Assembly (NCBI GenBank): GCA_017505415.1
Contig: JAFVPG010000170.1
Coordinates: 1 to 37,004, forward strand
DNA: 37,004 nucleotides
Source of the DNA: Lentisphaeria bacterium
GTDB lineage: Bacteria > Verrucomicrobiota > Lentisphaeria > Victivallales > Victivallaceae
Reading direction: 5' to 3'
Positions 3,745 through 36,983 of this stretch are shown here, in pieces (positions within the stretch are counted from its first letter, which is position 1; each line of letters opens with the position of its first letter). A program made the position numbers and the translations under genes. The notes beneath the pieces were generated by a model. The model was given only the letters and a program-made list of their open reading frames with translations. It searched no databases and was not told the origin of the DNA.

Positions 3745-4992
3745 TTACCAGAGATTGAATTTTTTACCGAGATAATAATCCCTGAGCCAGAAACTCATGT
3801 AATTGCATGAGAGTACACTGGAAGCATATTCACTGCCCGGAGGAATGTCTTCCTGCACTGGATAAGTAAAGCCTCTGAATTTATCAATGGTAAGTTTTTC
3901 AAGTACATTTTTTGCTTTTTCAGCAATATCTTTTCTGCCAAGACGAGCAGCAATAATTATTGCCGCAAAAATACTTTGCGTACTTCCTGCACGACGCCGT
4001 TCCCCTCCCCATGAGAGAAACGGCAGATTCACAGGATTCTGTATTTCGTCAATTTTCCCTGCTGAAGTCATACTGAAACTGTCCGTTTCACGTTTGTATT
4101 TCATTATATAATAATTCAAACCGTCATCGGCAAGTTCAACAAATAAATCATCATAAAACGATTTCTGTAAAACTTCACGGCAAAAATCATGGTATTCTTC
4201 GGATATTTCCCACAAATGATGCATTGCCAGCGATTTCATCATCAGAGGATTTTCATTCTGACGGTAATATTGTGCGCCATCATAAAGCTCCCCCTGCCGG
4301 AATCTTTCACGCAGAGTGCCGAGCGCATTTTCCCGTAAATGTTCCTCATCAAGCAGACGGGCAACTTCTTTTCTGCATGTTTCATTATCACTCAAACGGC
4401 ACGGCATACCTGCGATACCGAGGAATACAGGTGCAATATAATCGTATAACTGCGGTGTTTTTTTCATAGAGAAAAAACCGGGAGAATAATTTATATCACG
4501 CCAGAATTGCGCCATTTTTTCGAGCATATTTTTTATTTGCAGACGCTCATTTTCATCGGCGATTTGATAATATTCAACAAGTCCAGACATAACAAAAAGA
4601 TACTGGTCCCGTGAACAATGTTCACTGAATTGCGCGCCGTAAGGCTTCGGGAAAAAACCTTCACATCTGCCGTTTTGACCCAATTCATAAATATAACATA
4701 CTGCAGAAAATGCTTTTTTGGCGCGGCGCAGAGCATCAGCAGAGCAAGTTGTCTGATAATTCAAACTCTGGGCGGCAAGATATGCACCGGTAGTCATTCC
4801 GGCATCTTCATACGGCATGAAAATATGACCGGGAATATCACTGCCGAGTATTTTCGGAATATTGTTTTTTTCAGTGACGATTTCTCTCGTTTCATAATCA
4901 AGCATCATGCGGACGATATAAACATCATCCATCGCCCTATCTTCAATTAATGCTGAAAACTCTTCAGCTCTTTTCTGCAGCAAATTATTCAT
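3745..4992 (-). CDS. uncharacterised 415-aa protein, probably an alpha/alpha-barrel glycosidase-like fold
   Basis: I do not recognise a named family. The protein has no signal peptide and reads as a succession of amphipathic helices rich in aromatic residues (for example YEDAGMTTGAYLAAQSLNYQ and CSRDQYLFVMSGLVEYYQIAD). That pattern resembles six-hairpin glycosidases and lyases. Near the C-terminus it has LPFLSWGGERRRAGSTQSIF and a long helix before SCNYMSFWLRDYYLG. It is the last gene of the eleven-gene minus-strand operon, 5 bp after the upstream pseudopilin stop, so a role in carbohydrate breakdown is inferred from context only. It could equally be a structural or binding protein. Confidence 0.55.
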   Translation of the reverse strand: MNNLLQKRAEEFSALIEDRAMDDVYIVRMMLDYETREIVTEKNNIPKILGSDIPGHIFMPYEDAGMTTGAYLAAQSLNYQTTCSADALRRAKKAFSAVCYIYELGQNGRCEGFFPKPYGAQFSEHCSRDQYLFVMSGLVEYYQIADENERLQIKNMLEKMAQFWRDINYSPGFFSMKKTPQLYDYIAPVFLGIAGMPCRLSDNETCRKEVARLLDEEHLRENALGTLRERFRQGELYDGAQYYRQNENPLMMKSLAMHHLWEISEEYHDFCREVLQKSFYDDLFVELADDGLNYYIMKYKRETDSFSMTSAGKIDEIQNPVNLPFLSWGGERRRAGSTQSIFAAIIIAARLGRKDIAEKAKNVLEKLTIDKFRGFTYPVQEDIPPGSEYASSVLSCNYMSFWLRDYYLGKKFNLW

Positions 4993-5666: not shown

Positions 5667-8600
5667 TTATTCCTTAAACAATAATAAACGGAGTGATTTT
5701 GCAGAAACATTTATGTTGTCAAGAGAGATTTTTTCACCGCTGACGGCATCTTTGACGGAAGAATATTTGCCGGGAATGACAACTTTGGTATTTTCGCTGT
5801 TTGCACTTAAATTCACCACAGCCGCAAGAAGTTCACCCTTTTTGCGATATACGCTGATTTTGATATTGGGATTTGAGGCGGAAATACCGTGATTTTTCTC
5901 CCAGTACGGCAAAAATTCAACATCACTGTTTTTAACAAACTTTGTATGCGGCGCACGGAATTTGGCATAAGTACCCGAATGACAGAAAAGCGGCCAGATC
6001 AGCATATCATAAAGATAACAAATCGAAACCATTTCTATCGTCGGCTCAGGAGTTTTGTTGGAATAATTTGCATTACCACTCTTGGCAAGTTCCGGCAGAA
6101 AAAGAATCGGAGAACCAAATTGCCGTCCGGTAAATTCCGTCAAAGCACGTTCCTCCGGAATCTGTTCAATATAGCTATACAATATTCCTGCATACTGTTC
6201 ACCCTCAAGCAGAAGATCGCAGAAAGCTGTGATCGGCATAACGATAGCATTACTGCTGACATGTCCCGTAAAAACCGTTTCTTTATTATGTTTGCGAAAT
6301 TCCGTATAAGCACGTTTGGCAATAGTTCGTGCCGCAAATATCGGCCATTTTGCTTCCGGCTTACCAAATTCATTTATAAAGCCGCCGTGCCGCAGATTTT
6401 TACTCGGTGTCGGCCACGCCAAATCGTAATAAATACCGTTCAAGCCGTATTTCTGCATGCCGAGGACATAGGAATAAACCGCAAAATCCTGCCATGATTT
6501 TATATTCGGAGCGACAACGTCCAAATAAAACTCACCTTTTTTCTGGCTCTCCTCTCGTTTCCAATCATCGAAAAAGAGATTATATTCCGCCAATGAGGTG
6601 GAAACATTGTTCAGAAATGAATACGCACTTGTAAGTTTATTTGTATTTTTCGCTCTTTCAAGCACTTTCAAAGCGGCATCACTTGCATTCGGCACATAAG
6701 CAAAATATTTCATATTGGTCGGAACGAAAGTATAGCGAGTTTCCAATTCACGCCATTTCTGCGGTCTCGGACGCACAGGACTTGCCTGAATCCCGAAAGA
6801 AATCTCTTTTTTGCCGTCCAGAGCAGTTTTTCGTCCGATTATATGATAAGCAAGCCGGACATTATCGGCAGTTTTTTCAACGGAAACAGCTTTTTCCGGA
6901 GCAGAACGGAACCAGTTTTCGGCACTCTCACTGAAAATAAGCATACCTCTGTCTTTGTCACCAATCCAGAAAAACGGCAAAAATGGATATGATGTTTTCT
7001 TTTCCGGAGTTCTGCCGTAGTAATGTTTTGAGCCTTGTCCGGCACCCGTACTTTCGGTGAAGGCAAAAAGTTCGGAACACTCTTTTTTGAACGGAAAAAC
7101 AACATTCATTTCATCGACTGTAATTTTACGTTTACTCTTCAAAACTACGTTGAAAAATAACATACCGTCATATTCCAAATGCCCTTTTACTTCAATTTCA
7201 ATATCGTTTGCTTTCGCAGTCGCACGATAATCGGCTTCGGTTACGGATTTTCTGACGATTTCCCATTTATCGACCTTGAAATCAAGCATTTTCCCGCCAC
7301 TGACGAGTTGAATTGCAATCGGAGCTGCAAGCAACTCTCTGCCGCGGCTTGTCACCTGTTTCGGAAAAAGTGCGCCGTTTGAAAAATCATAACAGCGATT
7401 CCAACAGTAAAACTGTTTCTTTTCAATTTTTATATCCTCAAAAGGTGCGGGGACTTTGTCGGAATAACCGAATTTATTATTCAGCCATACGGAAACATCG
7501 GGGAAAATATTTTCAGAAAAATCAGAATGGATTTTTTTGCCGTTTTTTTCAAAAAGCTCAATCATAATACTGTATTTTTTAGCCGGCACAAGTTTGGCAA
7601 GCGAAAATTTCGCCTCAACTTCGGGCATGATTTTTTCTACATTATATTCTTCAATTTTTTTGCCGTCAACAATAAGAGAGAAAACAAGTTTTCCGCTTCT
7701 TATCAATTCAAACGGCATACCTGAACAATCCGTGACGGCACTGACTGCATTAGAATTTTTCTGCAAAGAAATTTTGGGAGCAGTAAACGGCGGCGGCGTC
7801 TTGTAAGGGAAAAATTCCGAACGGTAATACATCACATTAAATTTGCGATTCACCATTTGCAAGCCGACCTTATCAAAATTTTTCAAATTGCCCGCACCGA
7901 CCTTGTCTGAATGCAAAGTCCATGAATTAAGACGATCCTCATAACATAAATCACTGTGTGCGGAACGGCTCATTACTCCGTTTTTAAAAGTATCTGCAAA
8001 AACAAATAATTTACCGCTCTCATCTCCTGCTCTGAAAGTTATGTCAAAAGAAAATTTACCGTTGCCGTCAATATTTCTGATATTATTCATACGGACGATC
8101 GGAGCAGTTTCTGTAGTAAAGCGCAAAGTTCCGAGTTCAAGTTCATTCCACGGAGCAGTCGGGTCCCAGAGCGGAATCAATGATACATTTTCCTTACCGT
8201 TGCTGCGCAGGATATTCCACTTCCACGAAGTTTTTACTTTCGGACAATTTGTTTTCAATGCGTTAAACGACACGAAACACTGCACAAAATCCCTGCCCTT
8301 GCAAGATATTTTTTTTACCTGAAAACCGTCGGAGAGCGCATACGTGACAAAACGACGTGCAGGCGCATCATTACTGCGGAGAATCAAGGTAAAAACATCT
8401 TCTCTGCCGTCTGACGGAGTATCGAACAAAAAGTACATGCCCTTACTGTCATAAAACATCGCCACATCTGTCTGCCGTGCGGCAAAGGAACGGCGGGAGT
8501 TATCAAAAAATCCGCAATATAAATTGGCAGTTTTCCAATTTTCATCGTCAGGATTTATCTCTTTTGCAAAATCAAAATTCCTGCGCAGAGGAATTTCCAT

Positions 8601-9425
8601 AAGCGAAACACTCTTTAACTGTCCTCTGCTTTCCGAAGCATTTGTATTTTTGGCAAGAGCTGCTATTTCATCAGCATTCAATGCCTTATCATAAACAGCA
8701 AATTCCTCAAGCGCAGTCCTGTTTCCCTTATTTCTGCCGCACCACGGCGGTACGAAACCGCCGACAGTCAGTGTATCCAACGCTTCGGGAGTGCGGTAAA
8801 TATCCGCATTTACGGAAGTCACTTTTTTGCCGTCAATATAAAGAGTCATTTTCTGATTATCGAAAGCATAAGCGACGTGATAAAATTTATCCTTCCATTC
8901 TGTTACGGGATATATTGCACCGATTTTGCTGACTTTGGGTACAATTTCAGCAAATCCGTTTTTACGGGAAACGGCAACAAAAAGATTTTTCGGCTTCCTC
9001 GAATCAACGTGAATATTCAAAGCCCCCTCAGTACCTTTTTTGCCTGTACCGGATAATGTCGCAAAAACTGCCGCCCCCTGTGAATATCCGTTCCAGTTCA
9101 AAGGACGACATCTGAAAACTATTGTTCCCTTTCTGCGGATAAAAGGCACTTGTGATGTAAACTGCATAAAGTGTTCATTATCAATAATTGCAGATTTACG
9201 TTTTTCAGACGGAAATGCAACAAAATCTTTCAGCGTATTTTTTGTGCATTTGAGATTGTATTTGTTGATACTTATATCAGCTTTGCCGTCAAAAAATATC
9301 TGCAATGACGGAATCAGCACATTCTCCGCCGCACTATGTCCGAAACTGTGATCGACCATAGAATCAGAGGCGGATAAAAGCGAAGCAGTCATAGCAGTAA
9401 ACAGTACAAAGATGTTTTTTTTCAT
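5667..9425 (-). CDS. very large secreted LamG-containing glycosidase-like protein
   Basis: The start at 9425 gives MKKNIFVLFTAMTASLLSAS, a clear signal peptide, with GGGAA upstream inside the end of the previous gene. An in-frame ATG at 9440 would spoil the signal. Domains read in order: a LamG/concanavalin-like domain (about residues 85-270, with FYHVAYAFDNQKMTLYIDGK); a CBM9-like beta-domain (about 280-440); more beta-rich modules; a long region containing SKHYGRTPEKKTSYPFLPFFWIGD; and a C-terminal TIM-barrel-like part with GLNGIYYDLAWP and a final beta domain. The PFFWIGD/RGMLIF and YYDLAWP segments resemble DUF6067-type (GH123-related) proteins, from memory. The Asp in YYDLAW is a candidate catalytic residue. 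At 1252 aa it is the largest protein here, and the substrate is unknown. Confidence 0.75.
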   Translation of the reverse strand: MKKNIFVLFTAMTASLLSASDSMVDHSFGHSAAENVLIPSLQIFFDGKADISINKYNLKCTKNTLKDFVAFPSEKRKSAIIDNEHFMQFTSQVPFIRRKGTIVFRCRPLNWNGYSQGAAVFATLSGTGKKGTEGALNIHVDSRKPKNLFVAVSRKNGFAEIVPKVSKIGAIYPVTEWKDKFYHVAYAFDNQKMTLYIDGKKVTSVNADIYRTPEALDTLTVGGFVPPWCGRNKGNRTALEEFAVYDKALNADEIAALAKNTNASESRGQLKSVSLMEIPLRRNFDFAKEINPDDENWKTANLYCGFFDNSRRSFAARQTDVAMFYDSKGMYFLFDTPSDGREDVFTLILRSNDAPARRFVTYALSDGFQVKKISCKGRDFVQCFVSFNALKTNCPKVKTSWKWNILRSNGKENVSLIPLWDPTAPWNELELGTLRFTTETAPIVRMNNIRNIDGNGKFSFDITFRAGDESGKLFVFADTFKNGVMSRSAHSDLCYEDRLNSWTLHSDKVGAGNLKNFDKVGLQMVNRKFNVMYYRSEFFPYKTPPPFTAPKISLQKNSNAVSAVTDCSGMPFELIRSGKLVFSLIVDGKKIEEYNVEKIMPEVEAKFSLAKLVPAKKYSIMIELFEKNGKKIHSDFSENIFPDVSVWLNNKFGYSDKVPAPFEDIKIEKKQFYCWNRCYDFSNGALFPKQVTSRGRELLAAPIAIQLVSGGKMLDFKVDKWEIVRKSVTEADYRATAKANDIEIEVKGHLEYDGMLFFNVVLKSKRKITVDEMNVVFPFKKECSELFAFTESTGAGQGSKHYYGRTPEKKTSYPFLPFFWIGDKDRGMLIFSESAENWFRSAPEKAVSVEKTADNVRLAYHIIGRKTALDGKKEISFGIQASPVRPRPQKWRELETRYTFVPTNMKYFAYVPNASDAALKVLERAKNTNKLTSAYSFLNNVSTSLAEYNLFFDDWKREESQKKGEFYLDVVAPNIKSWQDFAVYSYVLGMQKYGLNGIYYDLAWPTPSKNLRHGGFINEFGKPEAKWPIFAARTIAKRAYTEFRKHNKETVFTGHVSSNAIVMPITAFCDLLLEGEQYAGILYSYIEQIPEERALTEFTGRQFGSPILFLPELAKSGNANYSNKTPEPTIEMVSICYLYDMLIWPLFCHSGTYAKFRAPHTKFVKNSDVEFLPYWEKNHGISASNPNIKISVYRKKGELLAAVVNLSANSENTKVVIPGKYSSVKDAVSGEKISLDNINVSAKSLRLLLFKE

Positions 9426-9430
9426 AATTT

Positions 9431-10207
9431 TTATTCCCACATGTCAGCGTCCCAGACATTGCCGCTTATATCCTGATAGGCAAAGGGGGCGTAATATTTG
9501 TTTTTAACATTTTTCCAGTTGAATCCTGCCGCATGTCCGTCCGCATACATGGTATTGCATTGTCCTCTGAAGTTGATATTATCCCCCTGTCCATGAGGCG
9601 CGCCAATCGAGAGATAATTTGAATTATAATCCGGATTGCCGTTGCCCGCTATAAACTGAATATCCTGCTTGCGGTAAAAATAAGCAGTCCAGCGTTTACC
9701 ATTGCCCTCATCACTTAATACACGGGTATCGGCAATAACGGCAGTTTCGGTAGGCTTACGGATTTTGTGTTCGGCAAATGCCTGGGTCGGGTCAACAGAG
9801 GTACGGATGATGTCACTGTTGAATGCATAAGTGGTACGGTAACTGTTTACTGCGCTTGAAGCATGAGCATTTTTTGCCATACCGTAACCGTCAGCCCACA
9901 ACTGCTGACAGAAAAAAAGTTTGGATACTCTGCCAGTTTCAGAGCCGTCTTCAGTAACTTTGTCAACACCCATATATTCACTCATGCGGTGCGACCATGT
10001 TCTTGCGCCGTCACTGGCAATAACGTAATAGTTGTATTCCCCGACATAACTTGACATGGCAACACCGATTTGCCGCAAATTGCCGAGACAGTTTGAGCTT
10101 CTGGCACGGCTTCTTGCTGAATTCAATGCAGGAAGAAGCATTCCGGCAAGAATGGCGATGATAGCAATAACAACAAGAAGTTCAATCAAAGTAAAATGTT
10201 TTTTCAT
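9431..10207 (-). CDS. pseudopilin-like protein (prepilin N-terminal domain)
   Basis: ATG at 10207 follows AAGGAGATTTGAT and yields [20 protein letters not shown] plus [20 protein letters not shown], a textbook prepilin leader and N-terminal helix. An upstream in-frame start at 10237 lies inside the preceding gene and would bury the leader. The mature domain (about 250 aa) is rich in Tyr, Asn and Gly and ends with [17 protein letters not shown]. The usual H-X9-DG spacing is relaxed here: the nearest His (APHGQGDN) is farther upstream. The gene is sandwiched between a DUF4091 glycosidase (13 bp) and the 1252-aa glycosidase (5 bp), and is surely co-transcribed with them. Confidence 0.88.
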
Positions 10208-10220
10208 ATCAAATCTCCTT

Positions 10221-12746
10221 TCAGTTGAGTTTTTCAATCATTTCAGCAATTTGTGTACGAAGCTCCTGCCAGTTGCGGCTGTTCAAAGTCCAATTCTGCG
10301 GAGTGACGAAAGGACGGACAAATTCAGCAAGAAGTTTTTCGGCTTCAACAGTATTTTTGCCGTTTTTCTTTGCTTTTTCCACCGCATTTCTGAGCAGCAC
10401 TGCATAATCAAAGTCATCCATACCTTCACGGTAAAGAACCAGGCGCAGACTCGGAGTGACGGTTGCATCGAATTTATCAAGTTTATCCTTGTCCTTTGCA
10501 GGAGGATAGAAAAATGCGGTTGCTCCGTTGCCCCATGTTGAATGAGGATTCTGCCACGGATTGAAGAATTTATGCGGAGATTTGGGTGCGCTCCACCAGA
10601 TATTGGTTGCCCAGATAGCGAAACCTGCAGAATTTTCCGCATAGTTCCGCGGAGCCCAGAAACGGTTTGTCATGCCCGGTGCATCGATCCAGAGAATCGA
10701 ACTGCGGGTAAGATATGTCCAGCATTTGCCCAAGCCGAAAAGTTCAAAACCTTCCTTTGAAACACCGCTGGCTGTTTCATTATCAAGAACTGTAAGCTCA
10801 TCAACAATACCTTTTAATGCATCAAAACCGTATCCGTTGTTGAGCAGTGCCATAGTACGGATATTTTTGGCATAAGGAAGTTTTTTGTATTCTGAAGTGA
10901 CATTTTTGACATATTGAAATTCGCCGTACATAGGCTCATCGAACCAGACCGTTGCTGCGCCTCCGATTTTTTTATCAGCAAGAAATTTCATAATTTTATC
11001 ACGTGCGGCGGCTTCTTTGGCTCCGGTTGCGGGAGTATTTCTGGCTCTGCCGCTGATATGATTTACGATGTACCGCTGAAGTTTGAGGTCATTCACCGCC
11101 CAGTTCAATTCTTTATCATAAATCTGTTCAAGTGTCGGACGTGCGGGAAGTTCAGGATTATAAACACCGCCTGCTGAAGGAAGTTTGACATTCATACGAT
11201 AATTTGCCATTTCTTTTACATAAGCACGGCTGATGTCGTGTTTTTCCTTGCGGGTCTGCGCTCCGTGGAATGGAAAAAGTCGCAGATTTGCGTACTGACT
11301 GAAGGCAAGCATGGTACGGCATGACGGGACTTCAGGCAGAGTAAAATCATACACTTTGAAATTGACGGGAATTGAAACTTCTTTACCTGAAACAGTAACT
11401 TTCAAAGTCCCTTTGTGAACTCCGGCTTTGGCATCCGCAGGAACTTTAACGTCAACCCATATAAGTGCATTTTCACCCTTTTTGACTGCTTTGGGGATAA
11501 AAATCGGGAGCGGGTCGGGCAGTAATCCTTTATAATCAGAGCGGTAAGAAAGAATTCTGCGTCCGCTCGCATAAGTAGAAGGAGTCTCAATTTTTACATA
11601 TTCTGCATTACGGACAACGATATTATCAGGATTGATTCCATCGATTAAGCAGACAGCCTTATCCAATGTCCCGTCAGCATCGGGCGTGAAAACGATTTGA
11701 AATGCTTCACTTTCATTTTTGGCAGCATTGGCAAAAATGGTATTTGAAGTTTTGAAAAATGAAATATTCTTAGCTGGAGCTGGAGTATTGATAAGAATTT
11801 TTTCGGTAGTATCAGCCTGCCAGAAAGTACCTTTATTATTGGTAAGATATGATCCGGCAGCAAAATATTTTTCAGCATCACCATTCAAAGTTACAACAGC
11901 GCTTTTTGCCGGAAAAGTTTTATCCGTTTCCTCAGGAGCGCACTGGGTAATACCTTCAACAGGTGAATAATAAAGCATTGCTTTGTATTCACCCGCCTTT
12001 TTAAATTCAGCGGCAAAAGCAATTTTCGCTTCACAAAGAGAGGTATTGATGACATCACAATCAAAATTGAGAATTTCAACCGTCATGCGGTTGGATTTCC
12101 AGTTGCTCATATCGCCGCTGAAAAAATAGAAACTGTCTTCAGCGAATTTATCCGAACGCACCATCGGGTCACGGTATGAACTTGTCACATGTACAGCCGC
12201 ATTGAAATCTTTGGGTGCATAGATGACATTGGGACGGGAAATACCTTTATAAACAGAACTGAAACGGTACCATGTCCCGGGGCTGGCAGTCAAAGTCTGA
12301 TTCAATGAATATCTTGACCCGCCTCTGGTAGAAAGGATATTACCGTCTCCATCCGGATTTTTGGCAAAAGTAAAACGTTTTGCAGCAGCACCTGTATTAA
12401 AAAGCCAGCCGTCAGGATAACCATTAGCTTTCAATTTGCCGAAATTGCCGTTTTTAAGCAATTCTTTACCGGGATACATGGCATATTTGCCATCAATAAA
12501 CTTGCCGTCAACGGCGATTCTCACCAACGGATAAGCGAAATGTTCTTTATTGAATTTGATAAATTCATTTTTGTTAACAGCAGCAGTCACTGCATTTGTA
12601 TCTATTTTCAAGTCATAGATACCGGGCGCAGGAATCTTAAAAGTTACGGGGATACGGTACTGATAAAAAGTATCCGCCCATTTTTCTGCACCGCAAAGCA
12701 TACACACCGCACAAAGGCATACAACTGACAAAGGAATTTTTTTCAT
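10221..12746 (-). CDS. secreted DUF4091 / GH123-like glycoside hydrolase (paralogue 1)
   Basis: The signal peptide is [21 protein letters not shown]-terminal beta-sandwich modules (about residues 20-460) precede a TIM-barrel that starts near [18 protein letters not shown]. The motif [10 protein letters not shown] at about residues 601-610 supplies an Asp-Glu pair (D603/E604) where GH123 N-acetyl-beta-galactosaminidases keep their catalytic Asp/Glu. The C-terminal DUF4091 signature is obvious: [21 protein letters not shown] and [23 protein letters not shown]. The start codon overlaps the stop of the upstream paralogue (ATGA at 12743-12746), which implies translational coupling. Family-level function is secure; GalNAc specificity is not, because DUF4091 proteins vary. 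Confidence 0.82.
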
Positions 12747-18926: not shown

Positions 18927-19643
18927 TTATTTCTCCATGATTTTTTTATCATAATTCTTCAAATATCCATTAAGATGCGAACGGATGACTGCTGAAAGTT
19001 TATCAAGATCACCGTTTTGCAGAGCATCGATCATTTCAAAATGTTCCTGATAACCTTTTTTAAATTCAATCTCATTTGACAATGAACTCAAAAACTGTTC
19101 ATCAAAAAACTCAACTACCAGCGGAAGCAATGAATTTATGAGAACATTGCCACTCAATTTCATTATTCCCATATGAAACTCCATATCTTTTTCATGGAGA
19201 AAAGTTTTGCTGAAATCATCATTATCTTTTTTCTCAGAAAGAGCATAAATCTTTTCACTCAAATTCTGCAGATACTCAATATCTTCCGGAGTGACATTTT
19301 CGATAGCTTTTTCAGCACAGCCAAGCTCCAGAGTCAACCGCAGATGCGCCAAGTCCTGAAAAGTATGCGGAGAAATAGCAAGAAACGGTTTATAATTTGC
19401 ATAAACATCGTTAGGCAAAAGAGATGCAACAGTCGCACCTTTTTTGGGTTTGGATTCAATGATACCGAGAGTACGGAAATGCTGAAGGGCTTCACGGGTA
19501 ATATTTCTGCTTATTTGCAATTTTTCTGCGAGTTCCCGTTCACTTGGCAGTACATCCCCTTCCCTCATATTATTTGCGATATAATTACCGATATGTTCGA
19601 TTGCCATATCGACAGTATTCTTACATTTTACAGGCTGCAGCAT
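18927..19643 (-). CDS. FadR-type GntR transcriptional regulator (wHTH + FCD)
   Basis: This local regulator probably senses a sugar acid or similar operon metabolite. The N-terminal winged helix (about residues 8-75) shows the GntR hallmark GDVLPSERELAEKLQISRNITREALQHFRTLGIIESKPKKGATV. The C-terminal half is all-helical with FCD features (LEKDMEFHMGIMKLSGN; His and Asp residues likely bind metal). The length of 238 aa is typical. AAGGAAGG precedes the ATG. It is the first gene of the eleven-gene operon, and the palindrome TGGTACTACCA lies 23 bp upstream of its start, so autorepression and control of the whole operon are expected. Confidence 0.9.
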   Translation of the reverse strand: MLQPVKCKNTVDMAIEHIGNYIANNMREGDVLPSERELAEKLQISRNITREALQHFRTLGIIESKPKKGATVASLLPNDVYANYKPFLAISPHTFQDLAHLRLTLELGCAEKAIENVTPEDIEYLQNLSEKIYALSEKKDNDDFSKTFLHEKDMEFHMGIMKLSGNVLINSLLPLVVEFFDEQFLSSLSNEIEFKKGYQEHFEMIDALQNGDLDKLSAVIRSHLNGYLKNYDKKIMEK

Positions 19644-19665: not shown

Positions 19666-19676
19666 TGGTACTACCA
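19666..19676. promoter_or_regulatory. FadR-type operator palindrome TGGTACTACCA
   Basis: An 11-bp perfect palindrome centred on C19671. It matches the TGGTnnnACCA core known for FadR-subfamily GntR operators. It sits 23 bp upstream of the regulator's start codon, between the promoter region and the ribosome binding site. I found no second copy in the window. Confidence 0.65.
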
Positions 19677-30647: not shown

Positions 30648-30902
30648 TTATTTGGAATGATATTTGGTGTGAAGCAGATGATGTGCTTTTTCACTGCCGG
30701 TGGGGTAACTTAAAATACCGGCGGCCTTGGCTTTCCGGTAAGCATCCTGAATTTCTTTGCGCCATGGCCCGGTCCAGAAATCCTCATCCGGAATATTCAC
30801 CGGCGCGACTTCGAAGCACCAGGTCATCGGCTGGCATTGTCCATCGGCATTGCCGACTGCCACCGGACACCCGGCTGCCCGCGTTAAAAAATGAACGCGT
30901 GT
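30648..30902 (-). pseudogene. remnant of an FAD-dependent oxidoreductase gene
   Basis: The minus-strand frame, open from 30902 to a TAA at 30648, encodes FLTRAAGCPVAVGNADGQC followed by QPMTWCFEVAPVNIPDEDFW. This matches the internal segment A-x-A-G-C-P-x-x-x-G-x-x-D-G-x-C-Q-P-M-T of large FAD-dependent oxidoreductases (PF12831-like) common in Lentisphaerae and Planctomycetes. Those proteins exceed 400 aa. Here both the FAD-binding N-terminus and the C-terminus are missing and no start codon fits. The DNA is noticeably more GC-rich than its flanks. It fills the gap between the RpiB-like gene and the second GntR operon. Confidence 0.6.
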
Positions 30903-30941
30903 TTACTTTAACAACTGTCAGAAGTAAAAAAAAATAAAAAA

Positions 30942-31014
30942 TATTACTCTTACCCCTTGAAATTCAAAAAAAACGGTATTATATTAAGGCAAAACGTATA
31001 TAGAGTAATACTCT
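30942..31014 (+). promoter_or_regulatory. promoter and operator of the second GntR operon
   Basis: TTGAAA (30957-30962), a 17-bp spacer and TATATT (30980-30985) form a near-ideal promoter. A perfect palindrome AGAGTAATACTCT lies at 31002-31014, about 10-20 bp after the expected transcript start. A related half-site, ATTACTCTTA (30942-30951), abuts the -35 box. Two copies flanking the promoter, right before a GntR gene, point to autorepression. Confidence 0.7.
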
Positions 31015-31043
31015 TAAGTCAAATTGAAAAGAGAATGTAGCTT

Positions 31044-31793
31044 ATGAATGTTTCCTTTAACTCCTCTTTCGATGGTATGCCGGCAGATGTCAGTATTGCC
31101 CAGCAGGCACTTACTGTGATCATCAGTTATATCCGGAATGAAAAATTGTGCGAAGGTGACTTCCTGCCATCGGCGGATTTCTTTGTTGAAAAATACGGTT
31201 TTTCCCGGGTGATGGTCAGAGAAGCAATGTGTTATCTGAAAGGCATGGGCATTGTGATTTCCGGCAAAGGCAGCGGTTTCCGTCTGGCAAAGATCAATCC
31301 GCTGGCCGGATTCGGGCGTTTGCTGCCGTTTTTCTTTGCACTTTCCAAAGATTCCGGAGATATTATTCTGATGCGCAACAATATGGAACTCGGATCATTC
31401 CCATCGGTGGTAAGAAATATTACCGATGCTGATCTGCTCGAATTGGAAAAGATCGTTGAGGCGGGCAGACAGGTACTGCAAAAAGATGTGCTGCACAATG
31501 TGGAATTTATTGCCGTTGATACTGATTTCCATACTGTACTCAATCGTGTTTCCGGTAATGAATTGCTGATCGCAGTGGCCGAATATTACCAGATGAAGTT
31601 GGGAAACGCGACTGCCAAAGAACAAATCGCTGATGAAACACACCGGAGTATATTTGCCACCGCCCAGATGGAACACGAGCAGATTTTCAACTCTCTGAAA
31701 TTGAAATCTCCGGAATCCGGATTGATCGCTCTTTATAATCATGTGAAGCGGCGTTACCATCCGTCTGCAATATTCTGGGAAGCGGAAAAATAA
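31044..31793 (+). CDS. GntR-family transcriptional regulator (FCD-like C-terminus)
   Basis: The N-terminal winged helix (about residues 18-85) reads QALTVIISYIRNEKLCEGDFLPSADFFVEKYGFSRVMVREAMCYLKGMGIVISGKGSGF, with the usual R-E-A and K-G-x-G-x wing. The C-terminal half is helical with FIAVDTDFHTVLNRVSGNELL and AQMEHEQIFNSLKLKSPE, the FCD Asp/His metal-site pattern. The length of 249 aa is slightly longer than usual. It is the first gene of a five-gene plus-strand operon: symporter, sialidase-like, DUF6259-like and pseudopilin genes follow. A palindromic operator lies 30 bp upstream. Confidence 0.88.
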   Translation: MNVSFNSSFDGMPADVSIAQQALTVIISYIRNEKLCEGDFLPSADFFVEKYGFSRVMVREAMCYLKGMGIVISGKGSGFRLAKINPLAGFGRLLPFFFALSKDSGDIILMRNNMELGSFPSVVRNITDADLLELEKIVEAGRQVLQKDVLHNVEFIAVDTDFHTVLNRVSGNELLIAVAEYYQMKLGNATAKEQIADETHRSIFATAQMEHEQIFNSLKLKSPESGLIALYNHVKRRYHPSAIFWEAEK

Positions 31794-31839
31794 ATATCAG
31801 TAATTAAAGATAAATCCACATATATGTACAAGGAGAATT

Positions 31840-33297
31840 ATGAGTGTTACAGACATTGTTATCGTCATCGGATATTTGCTGGCTTCAGCTTTGATTCCGG
31901 TATTTGTCGGTTTGCGGCAAAAGAACAAGGAGGATTTCATGCTGGCGGGCAAAAAGATGCATTGGTTCCCGCTGGCACTTTCCGGCGTGGCGGCAAGTTT
32001 CAGTGCGATAAGTCTGTTGGGGGCTCCGGGATTTGTCATGGGCAATGATATGCGTTATCTGCCGACACTGTTTGTGGGATTGTTGAGTATTCCGATCGTG
32101 TTTTTTCTGGTGGTTCCTTTCCTTTATAAGCTTTCGCTGGTATCGGCTTATGAATATTTGGAGGATCGTTTTTGTCCGGCATTGCGCTATGCGGCAAGTG
32201 CGGTATTCATGATCTCCAAACTCGGATATCTGTCGTTGTCGATTTTTACTCCTTCATTGGCATTGAGTTCAGTAACCGGTTTGCCGATAGAGCTGTTCAT
32301 CGTGATTTTCGGTTTGCTGACGACTTTTTACACCATGATCGGCGGTCTGGAAGGGGTGATCTGGTGCGATGTTATGCAATATGTGGTCATGGTGGTGGGA
32401 ATTGCCGGGGTGGTGATCTATTTTATCTGCGGAGATGTCGGCAGTTACTGGCAGACAGCAGAGTTGGCCGGCAAGACCAAAACATGGGATTTCGATTTGC
32501 GATTGGATAATCTTTCGGTCTGGGTGCTGTTTTTGAATTGCACACTTATGGGAATTGCCGGCACTTGCAGCGATCAATCATCGGTACAGAGATTGCTGTC
32601 GGCCAAATCGCTTAAAGATTCCATGCGCGGTTACCTTTTCTCCACGATTTTCGGGATTCCGATCGTATTGGTGCTTTATTTTATCGGAGCATGTTTGTAC
32701 GGATTTTTTCATACTGAAGCATCTTTGCCCGCCGAAATCGCCGGGGTTCCTGATAAAGTATTCCCGTATTTTATCGGTCATTATCTGCCTTCGGGGGTGG
32801 CCGGGATATTGCTGGCGGCGATTCTAGCTGCCGGTATGAGTACTATAAGTGTGGTACTGCACAGTCTCACTTCGCTTTTTATGGTCGATGTGTATGAAAA
32901 AATTACCAGAAACAAAGCTGAAGGAAAACGTTATGTGTCGATCAGCCGCATTGTTACGCTGGCGTGGGGAATTCTGGCTGTGATTCTGGCATTTTTTGTC
33001 ATGCATGTCGGAAATTCGATCGTGGAAGTATCCCAGGTGCTGGCCTCGCTTTTAAGTGCGCCTCTGGGAGGAATATTTATGCTGGGTATATTTACCAGAC
33101 GGACCAATGCTGCCGGAGCGATTGCCGGCGGAATCGCCGGATTCATTGCCACTGCCGGTTCATGGGCTTTGAATTTTTATGATGTGATCAAAATCAATTT
33201 TATGTGGTATGCGGTATTCGGTTTGATCGCCACCTGGGGTGTCGGATATGTTATAAGTCTTTTAACTTTTTCAAAAGAAAGGGAATTACAGAAATGA
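31840..33297 (+). CDS. SSS-family sodium:solute symporter
   Basis: The 485-aa polytopic membrane protein starts VTDIVIVIGYLLASALIPVFVGLRQKNKEDFMLAGKKMHW, typical of SSS transporters. It has about 13 hydrophobic segments and conserved stretches such as SGVAASFSAISLLGAPGF, the probable Na+ site region ILAAGMSTISVVLHSLTSLFMVDVYE and SAPLGGIFMLGIFTRR. AAGGAG precedes the ATG. This family includes sialic acid, sugar and amino acid importers. The neighbouring sialidase-like and glycosidase genes suggest a sugar or sialic acid, unproven. Its stop overlaps the next start (ATGA at 33294-33297). Confidence 0.88.
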   Translation: MSVTDIVIVIGYLLASALIPVFVGLRQKNKEDFMLAGKKMHWFPLALSGVAASFSAISLLGAPGFVMGNDMRYLPTLFVGLLSIPIVFFLVVPFLYKLSLVSAYEYLEDRFCPALRYAASAVFMISKLGYLSLSIFTPSLALSSVTGLPIELFIVIFGLLTTFYTMIGGLEGVIWCDVMQYVVMVVGIAGVVIYFICGDVGSYWQTAELAGKTKTWDFDLRLDNLSVWVLFLNCTLMGIAGTCSDQSSVQRLLSAKSLKDSMRGYLFSTIFGIPIVLVLYFIGACLYGFFHTEASLPAEIAGVPDKVFPYFIGHYLPSGVAGILLAAILAAGMSTISVVLHSLTSLFMVDVYEKITRNKAEGKRYVSISRIVTLAWGILAVILAFFVMHVGNSIVEVSQVLASLLSAPLGGIFMLGIFTRRTNAAGAIAGGIAGFIATAGSWALNFYDVIKINFMWYAVFGLIATWGVGYVISLLTFSKERELQK

Positions 33298-34430
33298 AAG
33301 TTGTTTTCAGTATGACTGCGGCACTGGCGCTGAGTGTATCGGCGTGGGCCGCTCCGGAAAAAGTGACGGTGAGAGTCGTCAGCAGTCAGGTGGTCAATGA
33401 TACCATTACGGATGCGATGAGTCCGACCGGATTGGCAGTTGCTCCCAATGGAGATATTCTTGCGGCTTTTCAGGATCGCGGGGATATCGGTCCTTTATGT
33501 AAAGCTTATATTGTCCGCTCCACAGATGGCGGTAAAACCTGGGGAGCTCCGGAAAAAGTGTTTGCCGGTAAAAATGACCGGGAAGGTATCTCGCTCACCT
33601 TGCACAATGCTCCGGATAACTCAATTTATCTGACGGTCACCAAGATGCTCCATGCAAGCAGTGACCGCAAAGCGGTCTTCGGTTGGCGTAGTTCATCCAT
33701 TGAGATATTCAGATCGGTTGACGGCAAAGAATATACGCCGGTACAGAAGCTTCCGACTCCTTCCGGAGCAATCTTTTCTCTGACCGGCAAGATTATTGAA
33801 TTGCCCAATGGAGATTGGGTCATTCCCGGTTACGGTTATCCCAAGCGTGCCAGGAGAGCCGGAGAAGTATATGGTGCGGGAATTTTCCGCAGTACCGACA
33901 AGGGTAAAACCTGGGGCAGTTTTGAAAGGATTTTCAAAGATGATCCGGCTCCGGGAGAAAGGCCTTACAGTTTCAACGAGACAGATCTGCTGCTCAAAGC
34001 TGACGGCACATTGGTTGCATTCGCTCGCATAGACAGCCGTCCGCGCTGCCATTTGTGGAAAGTTGTCTCTGCTGATTGCGGCAAAACCTGGAGTGATCCG
34101 GTCGAAACGAATATTCCCGGTCTTTACCCGGCGATCATCAGGCTGGATAACGGCGGTTTTCTGATGGTTGCCGGCAATCGTTATGCCAAACCGGTTATCC
34201 GGACGGTGAATTTTTTCTATTCTGCTGACGGTGAAAATTTCACCTTTGCCGGTATGCCGTATTATACCCGGACCGACGGAACTCCTGCCAACAGTGCCAC
34301 CGGCGGTTTGCAGGCTGTCGTTAAAGATCCGGCCAGTGGAAATTATGTTGTGATATTCTATGCACATGATCCGGAATTGCCCGGCCATCATCAGTGCTAT
34401 GTAGACAGTAACATCGTGGAGGTAAAGTAA
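33294..34430 (+). CDS. secreted sialidase-like (BNR/Asp-box) protein
   Basis: The start at 33294 gives a clear signal peptide, MKVVFSMTAALALSVSAWAA. The mature protein is a six-bladed beta-propeller with Asp boxes STDGGKTW, STDKGKTW and SADCGKTW and weaker copies (SVDGKEYT, SADGENFT). Family members (exo-alpha-sialidase/BNR_2) cleave sialic acids or act on other sugars. The FRIP motif and a full Arg triad are not obvious here (only MSPTGLAVAPNGDILAAFQ in its place), so true sialidase activity is uncertain. It is translationally coupled to the symporter gene (ATGA overlap), and its stop overlaps the next start (TAATG). Confidence 0.8.
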   Translation: MKVVFSMTAALALSVSAWAAPEKVTVRVVSSQVVNDTITDAMSPTGLAVAPNGDILAAFQDRGDIGPLCKAYIVRSTDGGKTWGAPEKVFAGKNDREGISLTLHNAPDNSIYLTVTKMLHASSDRKAVFGWRSSSIEIFRSVDGKEYTPVQKLPTPSGAIFSLTGKIIELPNGDWVIPGYGYPKRARRAGEVYGAGIFRSTDKGKTWGSFERIFKDDPAPGERPYSFNETDLLLKADGTLVAFARIDSRPRCHLWKVVSADCGKTWSDPVETNIPGLYPAIIRLDNGGFLMVAGNRYAKPVIRTVNFFYSADGENFTFAGMPYYTRTDGTPANSATGGLQAVVKDPASGNYVVIFYAHDPELPGHHQCYVDSNIVEVK

Positions 34431-36583
34431 TGATGGTGTCTTTGAAAAACAATCTTGCAGAAATCGGCTTTGCATTGAATGACGGGATTTTTGCGCTCAA
34501 AACTCTGCGGCACGGTTCGGATGAACAATTTGCCTGCGGCAATGTGCCTTTGTGGAAAATCGAATTGCTTGACCGTGACGGCGGAATTACTGAATTGATT
34601 TCCGACAGCATGCCGGAAACTGAATTTTTGGACCGCACACTTTTTATGCGGTGGCTTTGCGGAGAGTACTGCCGGGTGACGGTGAGCGTGGAAAAATCCG
34701 GAGAAGATGCTTTTAAATTGCGTATTGCCGTTGATCAGCTTGCCGGCAGCTGTTCGGTGCGGGAAGTGCATTTCCCGCATTTTGTATGGCAGTTGACCGA
34801 TGGTGAGGCGTGTAAACTTATTCTGCCGGAGGATGCCGGTACGGTTTATCCGGATCCGCTGAAAACTCTTGAGATCGGAAAAAGTCATTTATTTGTTCCG
34901 CGTCTGCAATCCCGGCATTATCCCCATGGAAACTTTTGTATGCAGTTTTTTGCGCTGGAAAAAAATGGCATTCTTGCCTATTGCGGCGCGCACGATCCGG
35001 CGGCTTTGGTAAAGGCATTCTGTCTGGGATGCGATCGGGAAAATAAAGTTCTGACGGTTTCACCTCATTGGCATTGTCCCGATACACCGGGCGTGGAAGT
35101 GAAAAGTTTCCCGTGGGTATTGGCATTGAATGACGGTGACTGGTTCGATGCGGCACAGCGTTACCGTAAATTTGCTCTGACAGCTCCCTGGACGGCGAAT
35201 GGTGCATTGGAACACGGTAAAAAAAGTCCGCAGTGGCTGCTGGAGACGCCCATGATTCCGTTGCGTATGCACCGGGGCGTGGGACATCAGGCCGAAGATT
35301 TGATCGCTGATGCCGAATATTTCGGTGTGCCGCAAATGATCCATTACTATATGTCACAAAAGGCCTCTTTTGACAGTAATCTGCCGTTCTTCTTTCCAGT
35401 GGTTCCGGATTTTCATTCTGAATTGAAAAAATTGAAAGATGCCGGCATCAAAGTGATTCCCTATCTCAACTTTTTCTCTGCCGATATGAATCAGCCGGAT
35501 TGGGATTATCTGAAAGATTCTGCCGTGCAGATCAATGAAAAAGGCGACATCCATGCGCAGGAATGGTCGTGTAACGGGCATGTGCTGGTTGAGATGTGTC
35601 CGTCATCTCCGTGCTGGCGCAGAATCACTTCACTGGTCGGCATGCGGATGCTGGAAACCGATGTCGCCGGAGTTTATTTCGATGAAATAGGCATGAGTCC
35701 GGCATACACATGCTGTGCCGGAAACCATGGCCATATACCGGGAGATCCGGAACAATTCTGTGCCTCGTGGAATACCCTGATCGGCGGTATGAAAGCAGAA
35801 ACCGCTGAATTCAAGGATGTTCCGGTTTTCGCCAGCGAGGGCGGCGGAGAACCGTTGATGGGCAATGTGGATACGTTGTTGGTGGGTAATAACAATTCAC
35901 CGTACACCAAGCCGCTTTTCTCAGCAGTATACCATGATTATGTGATGTGTTACGGCCGCTATACTTTTGCGCAGGAATTGGATGATCCCGCCTTTGCCGG
36001 GGCTATAGAGAGCAAGCATGCCGAACAATTTGTAATGGGCATGCAATTCGGCTGGTCGCGCATTCCGTGGAGCGTGATCCGTACGGCGGCACCGCATATA
36101 GCTGAATTTGTCCGGGATATGACTCTGGCCTGGAGCGACCACAGCATCTATCTTGCTGCCGGTAAGATGCTCCGTCCCCTGACCCTTGACGTGCCGGAGA
36201 AAAAAGTACGCTGGGCACGGGCATGGAATGATATGACAGGCACGGAATTTACGATGCCCGCAGTACTCAATTCCGTTTGGCAGTGTGACAATGCATCCAT
36301 CGCCGTGGTACTGGTCAACATCAGTGATTGCGAACAGAAGTTTGAAGTGGTCATGCCCAGTATCCAAATGGGTGACAAGGTATCTTCCGGCAGCGGTGCG
36401 GCAAATTACCGTTATCCTCTGCCGCAGGCATCACAGGCGTTTCAGTACAACTATCACAACGGCCGGCAGCCGCGTATCGTGCCGGGCGGCGATTCAACCA
36501 ATGGTTTCCATATAAACATGCCGCCCCGCACCACGGCTGTTTTATTGATTTCCAGTGAAAAATGTTATGGTGTGCATCAATAA
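34430..36583 (+). CDS. DUF6259-like TIM-barrel glycosidase-like protein
   Basis: This 717-aa protein has no signal peptide. An N-terminal beta-sandwich (about 1-260) precedes a TIM barrel, with [65 protein letters not shown] and [20 protein letters not shown]. The YFDEIGMS Asp-Glu and ASEGGGE are good catalytic candidates. A C-terminal beta domain follows. From memory this is the DUF6259 type, found beside carbohydrate genes in Lentisphaerae and Planctomycetes. Activity is unknown. GGAGG lies 7 bp before the ATG, which overlaps the upstream stop (TAATG); an ATG at 34433 is an alternative. Confidence 0.72.
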
Positions 36584-36614
36584 CCCCAACACACAAAAAG
36601 GAAGGGAAAGAAAA

Positions 36615-36983
36615 ATGAAAAAAATGCAATCCATTTTACTCCGTCATGCCGGAGTAAAACAGTTCTGTTTTACTCTTATTGAACTGCTCGTAGTCATTGC
36701 GATTATCGCCATATTGGCGGGAATGCTGCTTCCGGCATTGAATTCTGCCCGTGAGCGCGCCCGTACTGCCAGCTGTGTGAACAACCTCAAACAAATCGGT
36801 ACAGGTTTGTTGATGTACACCGATGACAACAATGGAGGCCAGCCGACAAACTGGGTGAGCTTTGATGCTTCCGGAATGAATAGAAGTGCGTACGCTAACA
36901 TAACTCCCTACATCGGAATCACACCGCAATACAATGCCGAGATACACTCTTTGAAAAATGCTTTTGTCTGTTTAATTTACTAA
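36615..36983 (+). CDS. short pseudopilin-like protein, possibly frameshifted
   Basis: ATG 36615 after GGAAGGGAAAG gives [16 protein letters not shown] and then [18 protein letters not shown] with [20 protein letters not shown], a prepilin leader with a longer N-terminal extension than its two relatives. The protein stops at 122 aa, about half their length, at FVCLIY. It lacks the C-terminal H-X9-DG region. Shifting frame near 36970 keeps the DNA open to the window end ([12 protein letters not shown]), so a frameshift or a real short form are both possible. It is the last gene of the second GntR operon in view, 31 bp after the DUF6259-like gene. Confidence 0.75.

Follow-up and report, generated by a model that had tools for sequence, protein, structure and literature searches.

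Putative paired operators 64 bp apart around the promoter of an FCD-type GntR regulator gene in Lentisphaeria

Introduction

Operators of the FadR subfamily of GntR regulators are described as sharing a GT-N3-AC core consensus (PMC4494728). Atu1419 of Agrobacterium fabrum, an FCD protein of the VanR group, is reported to be a tetramer that binds a palindrome and a degenerate palindrome and loops DNA; the report describes loops seen by electron microscopy and the looping of 190 bp by the FCD tetramer (PMC7797058). For the Escherichia coli FCD regulator LldR, the operators at lldPRD are thought to permit looping, but the distal operator is described as giving no extra repression in a lacUV5 reporter (PMC7804116). 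Several dimers of E. coli NanR, which binds sialic acid, are reported to bind cooperatively (PMC8012715), and at gntK of Corynebacterium glutamicum the FadR-type proteins GntR1 and GntR2 are described with two protected regions, for which a loop was proposed (PMC2230225). Lac repressor loops of 6–8 turns, between operators flanking a promoter, are reported to repress in E. coli in vivo (PMC5081198).

Dual operators of FCD regulators are already known, and the new part of the present analysis is a fixed spacing of six turns. A literature search, mostly of non-subscription papers, returned no report of such spacing, nor of GntR operators in Lentisphaerae.

Results

The operon and its regulator

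The window (the whole stretch analysed, 37,004 nucleotides) is contig C132 of a 3.1-Mb Lentisphaeria draft genome (G000) that is 84.5% complete. The operon under study begins with the second of its GntR genes, as the initial annotation had counted them, and is composed as follows:

31044–31793, plus strand: GntR-family regulator with an FCD domain (FadR/VanR subfamily), 249 aa, presumed to be a repressor
31840–33297, plus strand: sodium:solute symporter
33204–34430, plus strand: BNR (sialidase-like repeat) protein, listed with a start inside the symporter gene that probably lies too far upstream
34430–36583, plus strand: DUF6259 protein, by family match
36555–36983, plus strand: DUF1559/pilin-like protein, end of the shared cassette; the listed start is uncertain

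The first GntR gene lies at 18927–19643 on the minus strand; 22 bp before its start codon stands a perfect palindrome, TGGTAGTACCA (19666–19676, minus strand), which fits the FadR-type operator consensus and occurs once in the window.

The 249-aa regulator matches the Pfam GntR winged helix-turn-helix family PF00392 at 28.1 bits (cut-off 27) and the FCD family PF07729 at 47.2 bits (cut-off 24.3). Its best NCBIfam match, NanR, stays below the family cut-off (66.1 bits against 260), as does LldR (30.3 against 311). The best PDB match of its AlphaFold model (pLDDT 84.7) is E. coli NanR (6on4), and the further fold matches are other FCD regulators, including Atu1419 and FadR. The residues D159, H163, H211 and H233, which we take to be those of the FCD metal site (D, H, H, H), are invariant in the three orthologs, and H163 and H211 are invariant in 21 alignment rows.

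The solved structure nearest to the symporter is 5nv9, a putative sodium:solute symporter that is presumably the Proteus sialic-acid transporter, and the BNR protein bears a weak likeness to sialidases. Together with the binding of sialic acid by NanR, these similarities suggest that the effector is perhaps an acidic sugar imported by the symporter. The subset of window proteins that was scanned included no recognisable product of a gene for sialic-acid catabolism.

A promoter bracketed by two sites

In the initial annotation, a near-consensus promoter, TTGAAA-N17-TATATT, had been proposed in front of this gene, with a perfect palindrome just past the predicted start of transcription and a half-site upstream of the -35 hexamer. 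The promoter and the palindrome are both present as described, the former at 30957–30985 and ranking top of the region in a promoter scan (10 of 12 matches):

30938–30950, plus strand: O1, degenerate upstream putative operator, AAAATATTACTCT, centre 30944
30957–30962, plus strand: -35 hexamer TTGAAA, read directly and found by the promoter scan
30980–30985, plus strand: -10 hexamer TATATT, read directly and found by the promoter scan
31002–31014, plus strand: O2, perfect palindrome and putative operator, AGAGTAATACTCT, centre 31008, core GT-N3-AC

The proposed half-site, ATTACTCTTA, can be read at 30943–30952, but a degenerate whole site of 13 bp is the better description, because the centre of O1 then falls exactly 64 bp, or about six helical turns, from that of the palindrome. 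O1 matches 10 of the 12 specified bases of the motif AGAGTANTACTCT; of its two halves, the left has AT in place of GT and the AC side is retained. O2 has the palindromic GT-N3-AC form of FadR-subfamily operators. In relatives, elements of the type TTGnnn...GGTRYTATATTA also precede other genes, among them one for a tRNA, which supports the promoter as genuine. Transcription would start near 30991–30993, which would place the centre of O1 at about -48 and that of O2 at about +16, on a common face of the helix. An RNA element was considered and rejected (no Rfam match; leader fold z -0.92), and the palindrome, with 13 nt and a one-base centre, would make a poor hairpin.

The site pair in orthologous operons

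An orthologous operon, in which symporter, BNR, DUF6259 and pilin-like genes follow gntR in the order seen in the window, is present in two other Lentisphaeria genomes. The regulator of SIG92 (genome G034, locus L014) is 93% identical to that of the window, whereas in G290, from another family of the class, the identities are 35% for GntR, 55% for the symporter and 41% each for the BNR and DUF6259 proteins. In G290, AAATAATACTTG occurs twice before gntR, with centres at -79 and -15 from the ATG and thus exactly 64 bp apart; both sites have AT on the left in place of GT and retain AC, and their half-site sequence differs from that of the window pair. In SIG92, O1 agrees with the window at 12 of 13 positions and O2 at 13 of 13, against 35 of 51 for the DNA between the sites; the leader agrees at 27 of 29. 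This footprint says less on its upstream side, because beyond O1 the DNA has changed just as little (54 of 58). O1 of SIG92 also lacks the C of its AC, and a missing A reduces the spacing there to 63.

Near-consensus promoter strength is not conserved across the three loci: SIG92 has TTTAAA-N16-TATCTT, far from consensus and with a -35 hexamer that matches the window at 5 of 6 positions, and G290 has no good promoter hexamer pair between the two sites. Conservation upstream of orthologous operons was one of the two things on which the initial annotation had made its interpretation depend; the pair is kept in both G290 (64 bp) and SIG92, which supports a dual-operator interpretation. For the orthologous operon we regard the claim of a site pair as firm at the level of sequence.

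The shared cassette (window 30870–36971) is 93% identical to a copy in a different genus, and of 197 genomes of the class only 3 were found to encode a closely related symporter (E <= 1e-110); together these observations suggest horizontal transfer of the cassette; no relative was found in viral contigs. Relative to SIG92, about 1.6 kb is absent from the window just upstream of the operon: window segments 30702–30879 and 30870–36971 match L014 at 4055–4232 and 5828–11911, respectively, and overlap by 10 bp (30870–30879) at the junction, where the window holds the remnant of a minus-strand gene (a 447-aa ORF in L014) and the last bases of an AraC-like gene. The difference has the appearance of a deletion that took place in the lineage of the window. 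An inverted repeat, CGCGTT-AAAAAATG-AACGCG at 30880–30899, probably served the lost AraC-like gene as its terminator. A second symporter-BNR cluster of G290 (contig C76, locus L047) has a symporter 60% identical and two tandem BNR-like genes adjoining an oxidoreductase-like gene; this cluster has no ARTANTAYT sites and no site pair, and no GntR gene was recognised in it by eye.

Chance expectation and genome-wide scans

The motif and the spacing were picked after looking at the window. As a chance model, the 160 bp upstream of gntR were shuffled 5000 times with dinucleotides preserved. Palindromes with arms of at least 6 were present in 33% of these AT-rich shuffles, so the palindrome alone is weak, non-significant evidence. 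The exact AGTANTACT core appeared in 0.7% and 2-mismatch pairs at 63–65 bp in 2.3%; two AGTANTACT sites with at most one mismatch each, exactly 64 bp apart, appeared in none of the 5000.

A genome scan for the motif had been proposed together with the promoter. It finds the full motif AGAGTANTACTCT at one place in the 3.1-Mb genome, the O2 of this gene, and with one mismatch allowed at three places, against seven for the reversed control. On these counts a genome-wide multi-gene regulon was rejected, and the regulator looks local. G000 (3.1 Mb) and G290 (3.3 Mb) each contain a single match to the paired pattern ARTANTAYT-N55-ARTANTAYT, located in both genomes at this gntR, and the reversed control has 0 matches; the pattern is not found in G034, since the spacing in SIG92 is 63. 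Within 105,545 bases from nine loci, only four ARTANTAYT pairs lie 10–200 bp apart, all of them at 63 or 64.

Spacing in the wider FCD family

Among the 17 closest FCD relatives taken, 16 are truly informative, because the contig of G017 begins at the gene, so that the stretch taken from it holds no real upstream DNA. A pair at 63–64 bp was found in 7 of the 17 and was absent from 10. When up to one mismatch is allowed, GTANTAC pairs at these two distances account for five (G000, G290, G407, G022 and G021), against a shuffle mean of 0.085 and with 0 of 400 shuffles reaching five; exact ARTANTAYT pairs at these spacings occur in four (G034, G003, G000 and G290). No pair at 63 or 64 was found in the next 13 FCD relatives, and the only such pair in a set of 80 FCD genes further away stands at 64, close to the background of 0.26 per spacing. 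A general FCD spacing rule was therefore rejected, and we restrict the spacing claim to the near clade.

Even there the claim, made from sequence, is suggestive, because G000 and G034 are almost duplicates, G021 and G022 come from the same genus and amount to about one case, and the weak pair of G003 consists of A and T only. The O1 of G407 has one mismatch. On the tree, the seven carriers fall inside a group of 16 rows (support 99/97) and four changes are needed, so the clade label does not stand for one clean gain. The best promoter of G022 follows both sites instead of lying between them, so that the distance between the sites seems to be better preserved than their placement relative to the promoter. 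Upstream of the FCD gene at locus L042 (G389), tandem overlapping half-sites, TTGTAGTACAATACTACAATACTACAA, cover the likely promoter.

Discussion

We consider it probable that O1 and O2 are dual operators of the adjacent FadR/FCD repressor, serving the cooperative autorepression of its operon. One regulator dimer would sit on each site, and the two dimers would bracket RNA polymerase and silence the promoter of the gntR-symporter-BNR-DUF6259 operon; in this way the regulator would repress its own gene together with the operon until an effector, perhaps an acidic sugar, releases it. The dimers might either touch through a looped 64-bp segment or jointly hinder RNA polymerase. By analogy with lac loops of 6–8 turns and with the loop of an FCD tetramer, a 64-bp loop would be feasible in principle; against it we count that the distal operators of LldR added nothing in the lacUV5 assay, and looping is a possibility that we view with some doubt.

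One competing account would have O2 as the sole operator, blocking RNA polymerase alone past the start, and O1 as a functionless AT-rich near match. O2 is perfect and fully conserved, O1 has two mismatches and has lost a C in SIG92, where the DNA further upstream is just as conserved, and 2.3% of AT-rich shuffles supply 2-mismatch pairs at 63–65 bp; yet the two sites of G290 are equal, keep the 64 bp and are built on another half-site sequence, and several of the closest relatives have pairs at 63 or 64, which makes this account improbable. The position of O1 directly upstream of the -35 hexamer is a common one for activators, and a dual repressor/activator role was reportedly proposed for E. 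coli LldR by Aguilera in 2008 (cited in PMC7804116). A dimer on O1 (about -48) could accordingly activate when effector is present while O2 represses, as would suit the SIG92 promoter with its distance from consensus; the near-consensus promoter of the window would need no activator, and we think this very unlikely.

The sites might also belong to another regulator, such as the protein, AraC-like at its C-terminus when read by eye, that is encoded directly upstream in SIG92. No such gene occupies that position in the window, nor was one seen by eye among the ORFs of at least 200 aa adjoining G290 gntR, yet window and G290 both carry the pair, which goes with gntR, and GT-N3-AC is the core of the FadR subfamily; there is hardly any room for this assignment. 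Chance in AT-rich intergenic DNA can draw on the third of shuffles that hold palindromes this long and on the post hoc choice of motif, but the pair recurs independently before this gene, with the spacing kept, in G290 and SIG92, and it is unique in the whole G000 and G290 genomes, so that chance is close to refuted.

It is conceivable, and in our view rather unlikely, that a clade of Lentisphaeria FCD regulators is built for two operators six turns apart, with a tetramer clamping a mini-loop of 63–64 bp. Were this clade reading true, the spacing would stay while half-site sequence and promoter position drift. The present case is one in which the spacing of the putative operators is better preserved than their sequence, as a rigid clamp of two dimers or a short loop would predict. 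The locus offers a natural short-spacing pair suited to testing FCD looping, on which the published evidence conflicts (Atu1419 yes, LldR no in one assay), as well as an operator rule that can be put to use for regulators in a phylum that has received little study.

Comparison with known systems

E. coli NanR is both the best fold match (6on4) and the best NCBIfam match of the window regulator. As described for it, however, the NanR operator consists of close (GGTATA)3 repeats and not of two palindromes 64 bp apart; no GGTATA repeat occurs in 30880–31043, where a single GGTATT lies in the promoter spacer. The LldR operators flank their promoter, with a spacing wider than 63–64 bp, and differ in sequence from the window sites. 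For GntR1 and GntR2, the second site is described as without obvious motif similarity and the sites as close together. The lac loops were measured, in the account cited, at 70–85 bp in an engineered LacI system, against 63–64 bp for the present pair. The likeness to Atu1419 extends to an FCD-type GntR protein and a palindrome with a degenerate palindrome near the promoter and, judged from the DNA alone, to two operators near one promoter; the sites of Atu1419 are reported at 109 or 190 bp apart with the motif ATGTATACAT, whereas those of the window and its closest relatives stand 63–64 bp apart, with AGAGTAATACTCT in the window.
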